A stretch of DNA of 46,107 bases, from the NCBI GenBank assembly GCA_019459485.1, contig JAIBEZ010000070.1:1-46107 (forward strand). The letters are read 5' to 3'. A program made the translations under genes and the position numbers. Source of the DNA: Prolixibacteraceae bacterium (lineage in GTDB: Bacteria; Bacteroidota; Bacteroidia; Bacteroidales; Prolixibacteraceae). Shown here one piece after another: positions 26,492-43,103 of the stretch (position 1 is the first letter of the stretch; the number at the start of each line of letters is the position of its first letter). Under the pieces are notes generated by a model, which did not search any database, was not told the origin of the DNA, and saw only the letters and a program-made list of their open reading frames with translations.

Positions 26492-29400
26492 TTATGTTGT
26501 TTCTATTATTGCTATTTCTTCGGCTGTTAAATCGTAAAGTTGGTAAACCAATTGGTCGATTTGGGTTTCAAGATCGGTTGTATCAATTTCGGGTTTTTTT
26601 GATTTATCACAGATTATACTTTCAATAATTTCCCTGATTTTATTACTGTCTTTGAATGGCACACAAGGGAATAGCTTGCAATTTTCAATCAGAATTTTTT
26701 GGAATAATTCCTTTTCAATATCCAAGAATAGAAATTTGTGATAGAAATTTATCAATTTACTGTTTAGTAATGCGGTCAATTCAAAGACCGTGATATCAGA
26801 CATAGGAATTATTGCGAATCCAATTTGTGTAAAATATAAAGACTAGTCAGTAAGGCCAGCATATATTTTAGGCGGATTACCTGACACTATTTGTCTAACA
26901 ATTACTCTTGGTTCTGTAAAAAATCTTTCTTCTCTTTGTGCACCAAGCCAAGAACCATACCTAATAAATCCGTTTTCTTTGCCGGCAACGAAATATGGAA
27001 CAATATTCTCTCCTTTGATAAGGGGCTTGTATTCATCAGATAATTTCACTTCAGAATGAAATTCTTTGTTTTCTATTAGTTCTTTTGAATGACCTTTATA
27101 CTTGTCGTATGGTGTAATTCCAAGTGTAAAGTCTGCAATTTCTTCTAACCGTTTTCCTTTCCCGTGTATCTTCTTTAATGGTTTTAAGATTTCATCAGAA
27201 ATATAAATATTGAATTTTGGTTCGTTATAAATTTCCCAAGACTTTTTGGGAACAATATATTTTAGTGTTTCATCTAATTTGGTTATTTGTTCATCTTTCT
27301 TGTATGCTAATGTATAACAAGCATCAAATACGCCGTTCTTTTTAAACTCAATAATTACTGCTTCTACAGTAGCATCTTCAAATACTTTTTCTGGAAGCTT
27401 TACGATACCATAGATTTCATCTTTTATTAGGTTGCGTAAACTTTGATAAGACGAACCCATTAGAATAGAATTCGGCATTATGAAAGAAAAATGACCGAAA
27501 TTTTTTAAAAGGCTAAATGCTCGCTCTACAAATGTTGAGTATAGATTTACCCTATTTGAGGAAGTTGGATAATTAGCAAAAATAAATTTGACAAAATTAT
27601 TGTCTAATTCTTTCAAGTCAATATACGGCGGATTCCCAATCACCACATCAAACCCAACAAAATCACCGTTATCATTCAAAACTTCAGGAAACTCGAACCG
27701 CCATTCAAAAGCATTTTCGTAAATCCTGTTGTTGGTAATTTCTTCGAGTTCGGTTTCCAGTTTCCGGAGTTCTGTAGTCAGCAGTTCCGTCTTTTTATTG
27801 AATACCTTCTTTTCGGTTTTGCCCAACTCAAACAAACCTTGCTGATTGCTGTGCAGGTAAAGTTCGCCTTTCAGCTTGTTGAGCTTCAAGAGGCGTTTGT
27901 CGTTCGCTGCAATTTCGCTTTCAAAGTCGTTTTTAATCTGGTTGATCAGTTTTTCCATTGCCCGTTTTTCGTCTTTGCTCCGGGCATTCCGGTAGGTCAT
28001 TACGGCTAACCGGTAGCTGTCAATCGTCCATTTGCTTTTCCGCAATGCCTTTTTAATGTCAGCATCCAACGCATACCTGCTAATCAGCGAGTTTCCGCAT
28101 TTAATATTTATATCAATGTTCGGGAGAGTTTCAAGCTCGGTTTCGTTTTTGTAATAAGCGTTTTTCAACAATTCAATCCATAAACGCAAACGGCAAATTT
28201 TAACTGAATTGGGGTTTATGTCAACGCCAAACAAACAATTTTCAATAATCGTCTGCTTTTCGTGAAACAAAGTTTCCTGTATGCGCTGGCTTTCTTTGTT
28301 GGTGGGGTTGTACTCAAATAGTTCTCCGTCTTCGTCGGTAACAATCAATTCATCGTTTACCACTTCAAAATGATATTCTTTCAAACGTCTGCCTTCTCGA
28401 TCCTGTAGTATTTTTAAGTCGTTTTTTATGGCAATCATTTCATTGAGTGCCGAAACCAAAAAATGCCCCGAACCTACAGCAGGGTCGCAAATTTTCAGAT
28501 CATTTATAATTTTGTTGGCTTCGTTTCGGTCTTCAATTTTATCGTAGAGCGAATGAATATCGGCACAATTCCAACCTTTGGTTTCGTTGAATTTTTGAAC
28601 CACCGCTTTGCGAATGGTTTCGCGGCACATATACATGGTTATAAAACCAGGTGTAAAGAAAGAGCCGTCTTTATAGCCGTTTATTTTTTCGAAAATCAAT
28701 CCAAGAACCGAAGCATTGATAAGACTTTTATTGTCTTCCTGAATTTCTTCGCTGCCTTCGCTTGCAAAATCGTAAGCATTAAGAAACTCAAAGAGATATT
28801 CAAGCGGATTGATATGGCCTGTTCGTTTTTTGCCTTTATCGTCTTTTATTACGGTCGAGGAATAAATCGGAATTGTCTTGTCGTTGCGTAAATTGCTTAT
28901 GAATAGCGTAGTATGTTCTATTTCTGTTGGCTCAAAGAGCGAACTGTTCAAATAAGGAACTTTGGCGAATAGCGTTTTAATATCTACGTTTCGTTCGTCT
29001 TGCTTGCGTGCGAGCACTTGAAAAAACAAGCTGTTCAAATCATCGTAATCTTTGATTTTATCAAAACTTAGAAACTCGTATGATTTATCGCCTTTCCCTT
29101 CATTACGGGACGAGTTGTGATAGGTAATTAGTTGTGCTTCTAAAAGTTTTAGGAATAAAATTCGGTTTATCCATGTGATACTCAATTCAAGCCCAACATT
29201 AAAAAGTCGTTCTTGTAAGTTTGCCCCAAACTGGCTAGGTTTTTCAAGCCGTGTTATTTTGTCAAGGCTGTCTAACTGGATAATTGCATTTTCAAGAAAC
29301 GAGCCTGTATTTCGTTCGCCTTCTTTGTTGCGTTCAATTAGTTTTTTACTTCCGACTTTGGTTTCCGTTAACCCAATTATGTGAAGCAATTCGCCGTAAA

Positions 29401-30184
29401 ATCGTTTGTCAAGGCTGTTGCTGTCGTTTGCAAAAGGAAGTTTTAAAAGGTGTTCGGGCGAAAATAATTTGAATAACGAAATGAGTTTATTATCGTCTTT
29501 TTGGTCATGGTTTCGTAAAGGTTTTTCATACTCACGAATATTGAACCACGTAAACTCGATATCGTGTTTTATGTCGGCAATATATGGCTCGGCAATTTGT
29601 TTATAGAAAAAATCAGTGGTTTTGCCGCCTGAACTCCCATTTTCAAAGTCAATAAATTTCCGAACCAGTTCTTTATTTTGAGCAAAATGTTTTTCAAAAA
29701 TATGTGCATCAAAAATAAACCATTCGTTAATGTTGGTTGCAATAAGATATTTAATTTCAATATTTTTCTGTGTAATCCTTTCACGTAAATAATACAAAAC
29801 CAATTCTTGAAAAGCTTTCACATTAATTTTTGAAAGCATTTGCTCCTGTGTATCCCCAGGAGCGAATGCTTTCAGCATTTCAACTTTGCTGGACGGTTTT
29901 TTAGCTTCAATTATCACCCCAACCGTACTTGTGGCTTTATCTCCATTGTGGATTACAAGGTCGTTCCGTCCTTTGGTATTAATGAAATGGTTCTGTTTGT
30001 AATATGTATCTTTTAGAAAGTCGGAAACAAGGTTTTTATGAAATTCTTCCGATTCCCTGTCATCAATCCTGTCAAGTAACTGGATCAAATTGGTCTTGAA
30101 ACTCTCGATTTCAGTCCTGTTTGGTTTTACTTTCAGAAAGGCTTTATTAAGTGCCTTCCGAGGTGTCAAGATTCGTATTTCCAT
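26492..30184 (-). pseudogene. Type IIG restriction-modification enzyme split by an in-frame TAG
   Basis: From ATG 30184 the frame encodes 1113 residues, then TAG (26843-26845), then 116 more residues in the same frame to 26492. The N-terminus has a PD-(D/E)xK nuclease (Asp75, then Glu93-x-Lys95 in 'VIIEAKKPSS'). The N6-adenine methylase has motif I DPAVGSGHFL (about 566) and motif IV GNPPYIDL (about 847). The target-recognition part has 'GITPYDKYKGH' and 'PRVIVRQIVSGNPPKIYAGL'. The piece after the stop ('LTALLNSKLINFYHKFLF', 'IDQLVYQLYDLTAEEIAI') is the normal C-terminus of Eco57I/TaqI-like enzymes. The upstream in-frame GTG at 30253 lies before a likely promoter box and is not used. The enzyme is probably inactive or altered; activity without the tail is possible. 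Confidence 0.85.
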
Positions 30185-30220
30185 TAAATAGAATTCTCTT
30201 AAAATGTTAATTATTACCCA

Positions 30221-30228
30221 CAAATATA
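30221..30228 (-). promoter_or_regulatory. Candidate -7 box for the restriction-modification gene
   Basis: On the minus strand the site reads TATATTTG, matching TAnnTTTG. It is 37 bases before the ATG at 30184, which supports that start. No good -33 box is seen. Confidence 0.35.
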
Positions 30229-30429
30229 CAATTATCCGTGGGTGCGTTGGCACGAAATCGGCTCTTTTGCAAACGTTGAATATGTATAGGTTTGAGCGGT
30301 TTGCAAATCCCGATGAATCGGGACAAGTTATGCTGTTTTGTGCGTGGGCTGTTTATTATTTCGTTTTTTATTTTCTGCCTTTATGTAGCAAATTTGTATC
30401 AAAAACAATTAATGTTTTTAGTTTATAGC

Positions 30430-33981: not shown

Positions 33982-34596
33982 TCATGTCACAATGTGCATG
34001 ATTGGATCGTTGTAGGGTAAAGTAGTATTGGAGGTAACTACAGCCACCCTAAACCAGTATTTGGTAACGGGGTTAAGGTTGGTGAGTTCTACAGAAGCTT
34101 TGCCTGTAACTTCGGCAATCTTCCATGCATCGTCTGTATCGGGCAATACGTTAATGCTTAGTTGCCAGATGTACGATTTGGCGCCCGGTACGGCTTGCCT
34201 TCTGAGAAATACTGAGCCGGAGCTCTTGCCAGCTTCTGCGCTAAATTCTGACCGTTGGGCTGGTATGGGTTGTTTTGCCAAATTAAAGCCTGCACTGATT
34301 ACAATTGCAGTGTCTTCGTCGGCAATCCGCTCTACATACCTGGCTTCTTTACGCATTTTGTCATTCCATACCTCTTCAGACTGGCGCATCAGAACTGTAT
34401 TTTCCTTTCCACCATTGCGGGCATCTAAATAACGTGTTTCAAGAAGATCAGTAGCATCTTTTAGTTCATCTAATGGGACATCCGGATTCGGGAATGAAGG
34501 ATTATCGCTCATTTCCGAATGGACCTTCCTTCCCCTTAAAATTTTTTCAGGAATTGGAAGCTGAATAAAATCAAAAACTACATGGACTTTTTTCAT
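33982..34596 (-). CDS. Fibronectin type III-like protein without signal peptide
   Basis: The 204-residue protein has a helical N-terminal half ('DVPLDELKDATDLLETRYLD', 'EEVWNDKMRKEARYVERIAD') and a C-terminal FN3-like sandwich (about 105-204; 'YIWQLSIN', 'KASVELTNLNPVTKYWFRVA'). No signal peptide or lipobox is present. The phrase 'AGFNLAKQPIPAQRS' is typical of a Bacteroidota family that I cannot name. It is probably cytosolic or exported by a route not visible here. Its upstream region carries the 21-bp CTTAAG array. Confidence 0.65.
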   Translation of the reverse strand: MKKVHVVFDFIQLPIPEKILRGRKVHSEMSDNPSFPNPDVPLDELKDATDLLETRYLDARNGGKENTVLMRQSEEVWNDKMRKEARYVERIADEDTAIVISAGFNLAKQPIPAQRSEFSAEAGKSSGSVFLRRQAVPGAKSYIWQLSINVLPDTDDAWKIAEVTGKASVELTNLNPVTKYWFRVAVVTSNTTLPYNDPIMHIVT

Positions 34597-34861
34597 GGGT
34601 TTAAAATTTTAGATTAAAGAATAAATATCAATACACGGTTTTTTTATTTATAAGTATTACTATTGAGTTCTTTTTAATCGGCAACATTCATAAAACTGCC
34701 TTCCATTTTAATAATCTGCAAGTTTTTTTTAGTTCTACAATCGCTTCTATATTGAAATCTTAAGTATTTTTAGTTTTAACGATTACTATATTTATTATAA
34801 CTGGTGATTTATAAATTATAACTTTTCTTAATTTATATATTTATAAGTTTATTTTGTAAAA

Positions 34862-34975
34862 ACTTAAGCTATACAGAAAATAACTTAAGTTGTCAGGCTA
34901 TTTACTTAAGTTATTGATTGAACAACTTAAGTAATCTGATAATTATCTTAAGATATTGATTGAAATGCTTACGTA
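34862..34975. repeat. Array of CTTAAG palindromes at 21-bp spacing
   Basis: CTTAAG begins at 34863, 34884, 34905, 34926 and 34947, and a degenerate CTTACG begins at 34968, so each step is exactly 21 bp, two helical turns. Several copies are wider palindromes (AACTTAAGTT at 34882-34891). The 14-15 bases between are mostly not conserved, except TATTGATTGAA, which recurs. The same spacing could reflect a decayed heptad-coding repeat, but stops interrupt the frames. Confidence 0.8.
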
Positions 34976-35222
34976 ATGCTTCTTGTAGCGATTTATTTCT
35001 ATCGTTAAATGTTATCAATAGAACTAATAGAAGAAGATTTAGTGCTAATTTACAAAATAAATTAATACATTTATGTATTGATCGCAATTATTTATGAAAA
35101 TAATTACATTTTATCTAAAGTATAATTGAAGGAGGTTTTTTTTTTGTTCTGTAAAGAATCGTGTGGGTAATCAGAATGCAAATAGAGAATAAAATAAGTC
35201 ATAAAAGAAAGAGATATTGATA

Positions 35223-35380
35223 GTTCATATTCATAACTCACCCCGAAGTCCGCAGGCGGCCTTCCCCCCTCTCTTTAAAAAAGAGAGGGGGAGAGCATCG
35301 CAGATGCGACGGGGTGAGTAACCAATTACAATATAAATCTATTCCCGTTTCATAATTACCCATACAAAACGTTATAGAGC
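35223..35380. repeat. Tandem palindromic repeat, unit 1
   Basis: Starts near GTTCATATTCATA, then a long imperfect palindrome (ACTCACCCC at 35236 to GGGGTGAGT at 35319). A linker follows that ends in ACAAAACGTTATAGAGC (35364-35380). Unit 2 follows directly. A third copy of the palindrome is at 43021-43103. Confidence 0.75.
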
Positions 35381-35949
35381 CGTTCATATTCATAACTCAC
35401 CCCGAAGTCCGCAGGCGGCCTTCCCCCCTCTCTTTAAAAAGCTACTCTTTATACATATATTTTTGAGTGAGCCTGCATCCAAATAACATGGATAGCCTTT
35501 TCTTTAAACCTTATTTCAAATGGCAACCTCAGTAGAAAATCCATGTTCACTGTCCACAACCTTATTACCTTATTTTAGATTGTTGTATTCGACTTTCATA
35601 AATAAGGTAATAAGGTTTGGTTATATTGGTTATTTACTTTCTACTGAGGTTTAAAAAAAAATTAAGGTTTTTTTAAGACATTGAATTAAGGGGAACCGAC
35701 TCATAGCTAATCTCCTTTGTTTAATGCTTGTTTAATGAAACGCATTTTACACCATGGATTTTAGTAAATCTATAGTTGTGTATAAAGAGTAACTTTAAAA
35801 ATAGAGGGGGAGAGCATCGCAGACTTCGGCGTGAGCGTGCGACTGATCTCACGCCGAAGTCTCAGTCGAACGATGCGACGGGGTGAGTAAGCAATTACAA
35901 TATATACCTATTCCCTTTTCATAATTACCCACACAAAACGTTATAGAGC
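35381..35949. repeat. Tandem palindromic repeat, unit 2, interrupted
   Basis: Same order as unit 1: palindrome arm from 35395, right arm to 35888, and linker ending ACAAAACGTTATAGAGC (35933-35949). It is interrupted by the insertion at 35441-35792. A further inserted palindrome lies in the right arm (GACTTCGGCGTGAG...CTCACGCCGAAGTC, about 35822-35861). Confidence 0.75.
35441..35792. mobile_element. 352-bp MITE-like insertion
   Basis: TACTCTTTATACA (35443-35455) and TGTATAAAGAGTA (35779-35791) are 13-bp terminal inverted repeats. CTTTAAAAA flanks both sides (35432-35440 and 35793-35801) as a 9-bp target duplication, and unit 1 shows the empty site. Internal nested inverted repeats are ACCTCAGTAGAAA/TTTCTACTGAGGT (35526-35538 and 35638-35650) and AACCTTATTACCTTATTT/AAATAAGGTAATAAGGTT (35558-35575 and 35600-35617). 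There is no transposase frame, so it would have moved by a transposase elsewhere. Confidence 0.75.
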
Positions 35950-35960
35950 ATAGAAGACTT

Positions 35961-37517
35961 CTATCCTTTTGGCACCAGTGTAACCACCGGAATAATCATC
36001 TCCTCAAGTGAAATGCCGCCGTGCTGAAACGTATTCCGGAAATACTGCGCATAATAATTATAGTTGTTCGGATAGGCAAAGAAGTCGGTATTTGATGCGA
36101 AAATATACGAGGTACTTACGTTTCGGGAAGGCAGGTGAATGGTTGCCGGATTTTTCACCTCGAAAATGGCTTTTGACTTGTAATTAAGGTTGCGGCCCAG
36201 TTTGTAGCGCAGATTGGTATTTGTTTCGCGGTCGCCAAGCACTTTTTGTGCATTATCTACCCGTATGGTTCCATGATCGGTTGTAAGTACCACCTTGACT
36301 TTGTTTTCGGCCAGCAGTTTTATCAAATCCAGCAACGACGAGTGGTTAAACCAGCTCAGGGTAAGCGACCGGTAAGCGGCTTCATCGCCTGCAAGTTCCT
36401 TTATCATGTCCATTTCTGTACGGGCGTGCGAAATCATGTCAACAAAATTAAAAACCATTACCGACAGGTCGCTTTGGAGAATGCTTCCCAAATAGTCGGT
36501 CATTTTTTTATCGCCTTTTACATTGGAGATTTTTTCAAAAAAAAGCTTGTAATTTTTTCCCAGCCGCGCCAGTTGTGTTTGTAGTAATTCCTGTTCAAAC
36601 CGGTTTTTATGTCCTTCGTTGTCATCATCATCCCAAAATTCGGGATATCGTTTTTCGATTTCAGCAGGCATCATGCCCGCGAACATTGCATTCCGGGCAT
36701 ACATGGTGGCTGTTGGCAGAATGCTGCAATAAAGTTCCTCATCTTCAATATTGTAATAGTTGGTCAGTACCGTGGCCAAAACCTTGTACTGATCGTAACG
36801 GAGATTGTCGATCACCAGGACAAATACCTTGTTGCCACTGTCAACCTGGGGTATAATCTTCTTTTTGAAAATATCCACTGAAAGCAACGGACGGTCGGCG
36901 TTTTTATCATTGAACCACGACACATAATTGTTGCGAATGTATTTGCCAAACGAGTTGTTTGCTTCCGCTTTTTGCATTTTCAGCACCTCGTCCATTGCCG
37001 AATCTTCAGAAGAACTTAGTTCCAGCTCCCAGAAAACAAGCTTTTTATATACTTCAACCCATTCGTCAAAAGAAAGCCGGTCGCTTATTTGCATCCCTAT
37101 TTTCGAAAACTGGCTTTGATAGGCAGAAGTAGTTCGCTGAGTGACCAAACGCCTTTGGTCAACATTCTTTTTAATAGAAAGCAAAATCTGCTTCGGATTA
37201 ACGGGTTTTATCAGGTAATCGGCCATCTTCGAGCCAATGGCTTCGTCCATGATGTCCTCTTCTTCGCTTTTTGTAATCATCACCACCGGCACATTCGGAT
37301 CGATCGTTTTAATTTCGTTCAATGTTTGCAGGCCGCTCAATCCGGGCATGTTTTCGTCCAGAAAGATAATATCGAAATAATTTGTTTTTACAAGTTCAAT
37401 AGCATCGGTTCCGTTGTTGGCTGTAACTACTTCAAAACCTTTCTCCTGAAGAAAAATGATGTGTGCGCGCAATGAATCAATTTCGTCGTCTGTCCAAAGT
37501 ATTTTTGTTTTCTTCAT
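35961..37517 (-). CDS. porX: PorX, response regulator with PglZ-type phosphatase domain (T9SS)
   Basis: The 518-residue protein has an N-terminal receiver (acidic 'WTDDE', phospho-acceptor Asp54 in 'IIFLDENMPGLSG', Lys in 'ADYLIKPVN'). A helical linker and a C-terminal alkaline-phosphatase-superfamily PglZ domain follow ('VFVLVIDNLRYDQY', 'PTATMYARNAMFAG', 'VVLTTDHGTIRV', 'FQHGGISLEEMIIPVV'). This is the exact layout of PorX, which controls type IX secretion genes and has phosphodiesterase activity. Its kinase PorY is not in the window. The next gene upstream is porW, separated by about 690 bp of repeats, so they are not one operon. Confidence 0.93.
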   Translation of the reverse strand: MKKTKILWTDDEIDSLRAHIIFLQEKGFEVVTANNGTDAIELVKTNYFDIIFLDENMPGLSGLQTLNEIKTIDPNVPVVMITKSEEEDIMDEAIGSKMADYLIKPVNPKQILLSIKKNVDQRRLVTQRTTSAYQSQFSKIGMQISDRLSFDEWVEVYKKLVFWELELSSSEDSAMDEVLKMQKAEANNSFGKYIRNNYVSWFNDKNADRPLLSVDIFKKKIIPQVDSGNKVFVLVIDNLRYDQYKVLATVLTNYYNIEDEELYCSILPTATMYARNAMFAGMMPAEIEKRYPEFWDDDDNEGHKNRFEQELLQTQLARLGKNYKLFFEKISNVKGDKKMTDYLGSILQSDLSVMVFNFVDMISHARTEMDMIKELAGDEAAYRSLTLSWFNHSSLLDLIKLLAENKVKVVLTTDHGTIRVDNAQKVLGDRETNTNLRYKLGRNLNYKSKAIFEVKNPATIHLPSRNVSTSYIFASNTDFFAYPNNYNYYAQYFRNTFQHGGISLEEMIIPVVTLVPKG

Positions 37518-38207
37518 ATTGCTGTATTTGCCGGATGTAATTTCCTGATGGTTTTAAAATTCAACTTGTTGCTGAATATACAATCTTTATAACAAGTATA
37601 ACGAGAGAATAGTGTAAGCTTAACAAAATTTAACGCTGAAGCATTGGAACATTTTGATCCCCCGTATCCAAATAACATTGATCGCCTTTTCTTTAAACCT
37701 TATTTTAAAAGGCTACCTAAGTAGAAAAATCAGCGCTCAAAGCCGCAACCTTATTACCTTATTTAGGGTTGATAGTCTTCTGATAGAACTTTCATAAATT
37801 AGGTAATAAGGTGTGGATCTATTCGTTATTTTTTTCTACTGAGGTTTTTTTCTTTAAAAATAAGGTTTTTTAAGACATTGTATTTATTATTGATCCGATT
37901 TGATGTTTATCTCCTTTGTTTTTACTTTGTTTAGGGGATTTAAAATAAATGATTCCAGTTCTTTTACGGGTTGAAATCTTTTGTATGGGTAAGCGACAGC
38001 GTCGCGTGATATTTGTAGAAATCTGAAATGATGTATAATCCTGAGGTGCAGCGCACCGAAATGCTCCAAATAATATGTGCCTATATTTCGGTGCTCTGCA
38101 CCTTTTGTGTGTATTGCATATATATACTACAAATATCAACGGTGCTCTGCACCTGAAAATGCTTGCTTCATTTTCCCCATACAAAACGTTATAGAGCGAA
38201 CATTTTA
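37518..38207. repeat. Repeat-rich gap between porX and porW
   Basis: About 37664-37915 is a second, diverged copy of the core of the 35441-35792 element (TCCAAATAACATTGATCGCC, AACCTTATTACCTTATTT, CTACTGAGGTTT) without clear terminal repeats. At 38044-38062 and 38085-38103 the words AGGTGCA..GCACCGAAAT form an inverted repeat, with a third partial copy at 38140-38154. ACAAAACGTTATAGAGC (38181-38197) is the third copy of the 17-mer found in the tandem units. The two minus-strand frames here follow the repeats and are not believed. Confidence 0.65.
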
Positions 38208-43014: not shown

Positions 43015-43020
43015 AAATTA

Positions 43021-43103
43021 ACTCACCCCCAAGTCCGCAGGCGGCCTTCCCCCCCTCTCTTTTAAAAGAGAGAGGAGAGCATCGCAGATGCGACGGGGTG
43101 AGT
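43021..43103. repeat. Third copy of the ACTCACCCC palindromic repeat
   Basis: ACTCACCCC...GGGGTGAGT, with a central CTCTCTTTTAAAAGAGAG stem and CATCGCAGATGCGA right arm, as in unit 1 at 35236-35319. It lies just after the tocopherol cyclase-like stop and could act as a folded 3' end. Further along, to 43280, is only an AT-rich leader. Confidence 0.75.

Follow-up and report, generated by a model that had tools for sequence, protein, structure and literature searches.

Phased palindromic arrays recur upstream of FN3-like and DUF6261 genes

A tandem array of CTTAAG palindromes lies upstream of an FN3-like gene in a Prolixibacteraceae bacterium (assembly GCA_019459485.1, contig JAIBEZ010000070.1; we call the whole analysed stretch of 46,107 nucleotides the window), and arrays of the same length class precede most homologues of this gene and most genes of a second family, DUF6261. 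We suggest that the array is a non-coding element of a constant-length, variable-sequence class that is kept upstream of the FN3-like gene, and that it may serve as a cooperative multi-site operator or scaffold, a reading to which comparison of the sequences leads us to assign a probability of roughly 0.4.

Results

The array occupies positions 34863 to 34988 and consists of six 21-bp units, as delimited by site positions and by tandem-repeat and shuffle scores. The six sites of the original prediction are reproduced at steps of exactly 21 bp: five are CTTAAG and form the first to fifth dyad centres (34863-34868, 34884-34889 (AACTTAAGTT), 34905-34910, 34926-34931 and 34947-34952), and the sixth, at 34968-34973, is a degenerate CTTACG. 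The hexamer itself is not enriched, with eight copies in the window, five of them in the array, against 10.8 +- 3.5 in shuffles, so it is the regular spacing that constitutes the signal. By simple arithmetic, a five-site run at 21 bp has an expectation of about 1e-14 in the window, and a pattern search of the 5.53-Mb assembly returned no CTTAAG-N15-CTTAAG outside this array. The scores of the 900-bp stretch preceding the FN3-like gene, 0.667 for lag 42 and 0.571 for lag 21, both exceed the best score (0.560) reached at any lag from 12 to 60 by 300 first-order Markov shuffles. The proposed helical phasing is borne out by the exact two-turn spacing. The array is non-coding, and no open frame runs through it, each of the six frames holding 2-9 stops. 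The spacers, which had been described as largely unconserved, turn out to carry structure of their own: units 3 and 5 have TATTGATTGAA in common, Tandem Repeats Finder reports a 42-bp higher-order period at 34882-34964, and a second dyad centre of the 21-bp unit is located in the spacer.

The FN3-like gene (33982-34596, minus strand) encodes 204 amino acids with a predicted helical N-terminal domain and a fibronectin-type-III-like C-terminal domain. The array does lie upstream of it, at a distance that we correct from about 270-380 bp to 267-392 bp, across an AT-rich leader (34597-34862). With the patterns that we tried, no Bacteroidota-type promoter was matched at 34591-35960 on the strand of the gene, nor any near the array. 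The product matches Pfam fn3 with an E-value of 1.5e-4, below the Pfam cut-off, and its FN3 half matches fibronectin type III structures (best E 9e-6), while the helical half has no structural match (best E 0.76) and corresponds to no solved DNA-binding fold. FN3-like proteins are also near neutral (median pI 6.3), and because of this charge and of a helical half without a known fold the protein is no obvious DNA binder; it shows no DNA-binding hallmark. It has no match among plasmids and phages, none of 51 pattern matches from viral contigs corresponds to a related FN3-like protein (L110), and a Pfam scan of eight window ORFs named no Rep or Par family. Elsewhere in the window, 26843-30253 and 35961-37517 hold an Eco57I-type restriction-modification gene (DUF7149, DUF7814) and a response-regulator-PglZ gene. 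An intergenic repeat with CACCCCGAAGTCCGCAGGCGGCC and CGACGGGGTGAG is present in several copies that are 87-100% alike (35223-35440, 35805-35949 and 43019-43103), and two further features, at 35525-35651 and 37666-37884, are a long imperfect inverted repeat and a 222-bp stretch that is 80% like 35477-35687.

The CTTAAG-N15-CTTAAG pair pattern matches 12 of 61 genomes (source genome included), many of them through a single pair or unrelated short repeats. One genome of the same genus, G003, carries two CTTAAG arrays that are larger than that of the window and keep the same register. The first, on contig 77, lies upstream of an FN3-like orthologue with 75% identity, and phase and position are thus conserved between the two congeners that have the gene at such similarity. 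The second, on contig 21 (L016:5228-5620), is related in sequence to the first and has no FN3-like gene in the 11 kb examined.

A search of 140 family genomes gave 25 matches to the FN3-like gene, spread over 14 of them, and in the phylum there are 8 near-full-length matches in 7 of 392 genomes, the remaining matches among those listed being mostly FN3 domains of other proteins. Named genomes, including Mangrovibacterium, Mariniphaga, Paludibacter and Niastella, contributed 50 loci, 18 of them from Methylococcaceae or Crenothrix. The scored set comprises 67 loci after removal of doubles and fragments (fragments L028, L029, L034 and L038; L087, in which 8 bp precede the gene; duplicate retrievals; and L115), and nine of these have less than 900 bp of upstream sequence. 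An array was called when a period of 20-22 or 40-43 was present within 900 bp, and counts are given as ranges because they depend on the strict score threshold of 0.6.

Upstream arrays with periods of 21, 40, 41 or 42 bp are found at 47-50 of the 67 loci (47 strict), leaving 17-20 without an array at the threshold; after collapse at 90% DNA identity, 42-46 of 61 groups include at least one, the two thresholds giving 46 and 43. Among the Methylococcaceae, 11 of 18 loci pass. When any lag from 12 to 60 was admitted, 47 of the 48 arrays upstream still fell at 21 or 40-42, and array and gene are a median of 288 bp apart. Arrays therefore precede the same gene in relatives, in the congeneric orthologue and in most homologues alike, and the phase recurs with them. 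What had been said to be kept was the palindrome and its phase; phase, length and symmetry do recur, but conservation of CTTAAG itself is not supported, the unit sequence being another one at other loci (CTTAAG, CTGCAG, CGATCG and CATCTTCGATCGAAGATG among others).

Downstream of the gene, arrays were called at 3 of the 67 loci: two are from Geomonas, with a period of 21 bp, and the third is a harmonic of a 10-bp repeat. In the Geomonas pair (L113:3735-3881 and L114:3770-3895) the 21-bp array is downstream, not upstream, of the FN3-like gene. A set of 23 FN3-domain loci yielded no array, a poor control for intergenic DNA since positions were taken relative to the domain match, which is often internal to a long gene; the downstream side and background windows are better controls. 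In a 400-kb sample of Mangrovibacterium lignilyticum, 6 of 440 background windows of 900 bp contain an array.

No leader motif is shared upstream of the arrays, in that no 9-mer is common to more than four loci. Complete matches to the Bacteroidota promoter pattern TTG-N17-22-TAnnTTTG (or TTCG) at 47 loci, counted without a shuffle control, lie upstream of the array in seven cases, inside it in two and between array and gene in two. At two places in M. lignilyticum (L042 and L043), array, gene and flanks are duplicated as a 1.84-kb segment (98%). We considered a mobile element for this pair and set it aside, as inspection by eye and a short-word search revealed neither terminal inverted repeats nor a target duplication.

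The lead to a second family came from the background sample, where one of the six array windows precedes a DUF6261 gene. Twenty-five of 60 family genomes contain DUF6261; the source genome has six copies, and one genome (G140) holds 14. Upstream arrays with a period of 41 or 42 bp are present at 20-21 of 30 DUF6261 loci (20 strict) and absent from 9-10 at the threshold, and none of the 30 has a downstream array; by groups, 18-19 of 28 have one. With a floating lag of 12-60, all 20 upstream arrays fall at 21 or 40-42. Four of the six source-genome copies pass at 41 bp, with a different palindrome in each case, and one more scores 0.55. Profile comparison did not establish homology between the FN3-like and DUF6261 proteins (probability 7.8 for the whole proteins and 1.4 for the helical domain). 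The usual arrangement, a DUF6261 gene preceded by a 41- or 42-bp palindromic array, can be seen at L142:15583-15869 and L142:15806-16699 (M. lignilyticum) and across L145-L174. In three congeners (DUF6261 loci L150, L152 and L153), a TTTAGATTATGTCTAAA dyad, or a close variant of it, lies between array and gene about 80 bp past the array, and we take it to resemble a metal-regulator box.

Arrays of this kind are not confined to the two families. In 734,650 sampled bases of the source genome there are 14, of which 11 have periods of 21, 22, 42 or 44 bp; one of these 11 lies within an ORF, and another two belong to a single array interrupted by a contig break, of which they form the ends. Several of the same-period arrays away from both families lie at gene 3' ends or between convergent genes. 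Arrays also stand at contig ends of the source assembly (L185:1 and L218:7103; L188:1 and L218:121), and the division of one of them between contigs 6 and 41 indicates that arrays break the assembly. Within its genome the window array thus belongs to a larger population, and what sets the upstream linkage apart is the two families, not the arrays as such.

Symmetry within the unit was compared with column permutation, and the dyad of the 21-bp unit exceeds it (p <= 0.014) in 18 of 24 arrays, the other six not being significant. In the pooled profile, complementarity is 0.38 and 0.44 at the two pairs nearest the base-centred dyad and 0.48-0.61 further out. Mismatch and covariation tests pooled those arrays (40 of 49) whose dyad z reached 2.5 or more, a cut that is lenient because the register was picked as the best of 21. 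On the gene strand, in-register mismatches are nearly balanced (G-T 335, A-C 319), as they are off register (7669 and 7897). Changes on both sides that keep the pairing number 148, against 167 +- 9 in shuffles, and there is no within-unit covariation; the same 148 exceeds the 79-114 of slid registers, which is what a symmetric consensus without covariation would be expected to give. Column entropy does not vary with a 3-base period (mean z -0.06; 2 of 49 arrays). Equal G-T and A-C, the absence of covariation and the absence of a codon signal together favour half-sites that drift independently in duplex DNA, that is, paired half-sites in duplex DNA rather than RNA hairpins or a coding heptad. 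A few L041 units had seemed to hold compensatory changes, a reading that failed over all arrays.

Candidate regulator genes flank some of the arrays. A GerE-type (PAS-LuxR-like) gene is divergent across the array at nine FN3-like loci (L023, L024, L025, L026, L035, L078, L079, L090 and L110), and a Crp-like gene is codirectional before the array at six (L030, L031, L032, L036, L044 and L045). Pfam was run on four of these regulators, with GerE well above the cut-off in two and cNMP_binding below it in two; the remaining ones were assigned by sequence similarity. At 52 of the 67 FN3-like loci, including that of the window, the stretch examined contains no GerE- or Crp-like gene, and the DUF6261 loci likewise yielded none.

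Discussion

The reading that we prefer, a cooperative operator or scaffold, would work as follows. In each unit, a two-fold-symmetric protein would meet inverted half-sites that share one face of the duplex, and adjacent dimers would contact each other along the array. Such contacts would place spacing and symmetry under selection, and the letters themselves would be left to drift, with homogenisation inside each locus. The FN3-like (or DUF6261) gene downstream would then probably come under cooperative control, and at 15 FN3-like loci the GerE- or Crp-like genes beyond the array encode candidate binders. Several observations speak against an operator: same-period arrays away from the families, loci without arrays, 6 of 24 arrays without a significant dyad, 52 of 67 loci without a regulator gene, the near-neutral charge of FN3-like proteins and their helical domain unlike any solved DNA-binding fold, and the promoter-like matches upstream of the array at 7 of 47 loci, as those arrays would be in a transcript. 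One could go further and regard the FN3-like or DUF6261 gene and its private phased palindromic array as a module in which fast-changing letters on a fixed geometry form an address, read by a dimeric protein that assembles on the array. We consider this extension unlikely; if it were true, a genome with up to 14 DUF6261 copies would amount to a set of distinct addresses.

The main rival is a functionless satellite, in which slippage and unequal exchange amplify near-palindromic seeds, a replication or topology bias sets the two-turn length, and the position is tolerated. We find this doubtful, but it keeps its place because arrays also occur away from FN3-like and DUF6261 genes, in the source genome several of them between convergent genes, and because sequences drift freely with no covariation; the class to which the units belong was also published without a known function (PMC8161180). 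The linkage is hard to square with a satellite, being strong, one-sided and upstream in two protein families and in both Bacteroidota and Methylococcaceae, with downstream counts of 3 of 67 and 0 of 30.

An array transcribed as a leader or small RNA of tandem 20-21-nt hairpins, with CTTAAG as the hairpin junction and with effects on the downstream mRNA or in trans, seems improbable. We came to it through a fold on paper with 8-bp arms and a 3-5-nt loop. The drop in complementarity near the base-centred dyad is loop-like, the promoter-like matches that precede the array at 7 of 47 loci, counted without a control, would suit transcription, and bacterial repeats of 52 nt are reported as transcribed in PMC8161180. 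Our estimate was lowered by G-T mismatches being no commoner than A-C and by the lack of within-unit covariation; window positions 34000-36500 have no Rfam match, and a length that is a helical multiple has no obvious RNA reason. We rate as more improbable still a cruciform or other non-B DNA formed by the tandem inverted repeats and recognised by shape rather than sequence. It would account for dyad symmetry without sequence conservation and for strand-symmetric mismatches, but extrusion would favour covariation between the unit arms, which we do not see.

The decayed 7-codon repeat, which the original prediction had named as the main alternative and which we followed first because frames run open through the arrays of G003 (same genus), G048 and G038 (order level), is refuted as a general explanation and has very little left in its favour: 21 and 42 are divisible by 3 and a frame is open in 12 of 23 arrays in the gene direction and in 14 of 23 on either strand, but the period is 40 or 41 in 13 of 71 arrays, 9 of 23 (the window's among them, with its stops in every frame) are open in no frame, and 3-base periodicity is absent. 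Single arrays may nonetheless be translated, given that in L033 and L041, near-identical genes of one genome, the array frame runs open into the FN3-like gene.

The length class itself has been described. Subirana and Messeguer (PMC8161180) report tandem repeats in bacteria whose size is constant (20-21 or 52 nt) but whose sequence varies, with function unknown, and remark that 20-21 nt is two helical turns. Our arrays resemble that class in length, in being non-coding and in the presence of several sequence-unrelated arrays per genome. Where the class has at least four repeats, most of them of the same length within 1 nt at 20-21, the window has six units at exactly 21, and its genome holds other, unrelated arrays of corresponding length (11 of 14 at 21, 22, 42 or 44, and 4 of 6 at DUF6261 genes, at 41). 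An earlier paper by the same group reportedly appeared in J Bacteriol in 2020. What differs here is the upstream linkage to two families, the dyad symmetry, the 40-42-bp dimers and the occurrence in Bacteroidota and Methylococcaceae; the accessible portion of PMC8161180 does not mention palindromes, upstream position, symmetry, a gene family or Bacteroidota terms. In the open-licence PubMed Central literature, which leaves most subscription papers outside, we found neither dyad symmetry nor linkage to FN3-like or DUF6261 genes reported. The class is already known, while the gene linkage and the symmetry appear to be new.

Other known systems resemble the arrays in part. Multi-site operators of the LuxR/GerE and Crp types consist of dyads of about 20-22 bp phased on one face. 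The arrays share the two-turn dyads, and GerE- or Crp-like genes flank 15 FN3-like loci; they differ in having 6-32 tandem units rather than a few, a locus-specific sequence and, at most loci, no regulator gene. Plasmid iterons and partition arrays are tandem direct repeats about two turns apart, whereas our arrays lie on draft contigs of chromosome type, a plasmid search gave no match to the FN3-like protein, and by Pfam scan the partner belongs to no known Rep or Par family. The arrays are short intergenic palindromes like REP/BIME elements (compare PMC3733652 and PMC3116915), but they are head-to-tail and private to their locus. We rejected REP/BIME because the two-site pattern of the window occurs at one locus only in its assembly and is not dispersed in many copies. 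A CRISPR array was likewise rejected on the repeat structure: a 21-bp period, a conserved 6-bp core and related spacers stand against identical repeats and unique spacers.

The upstream linkage to two defined families, together with the evidence for dyads in duplex DNA, makes an enigmatic repeat class experimentally approachable. Neither the FN3-like family nor DUF6261 has an assigned function, and the arrays are therefore a lead to the roles of both families.
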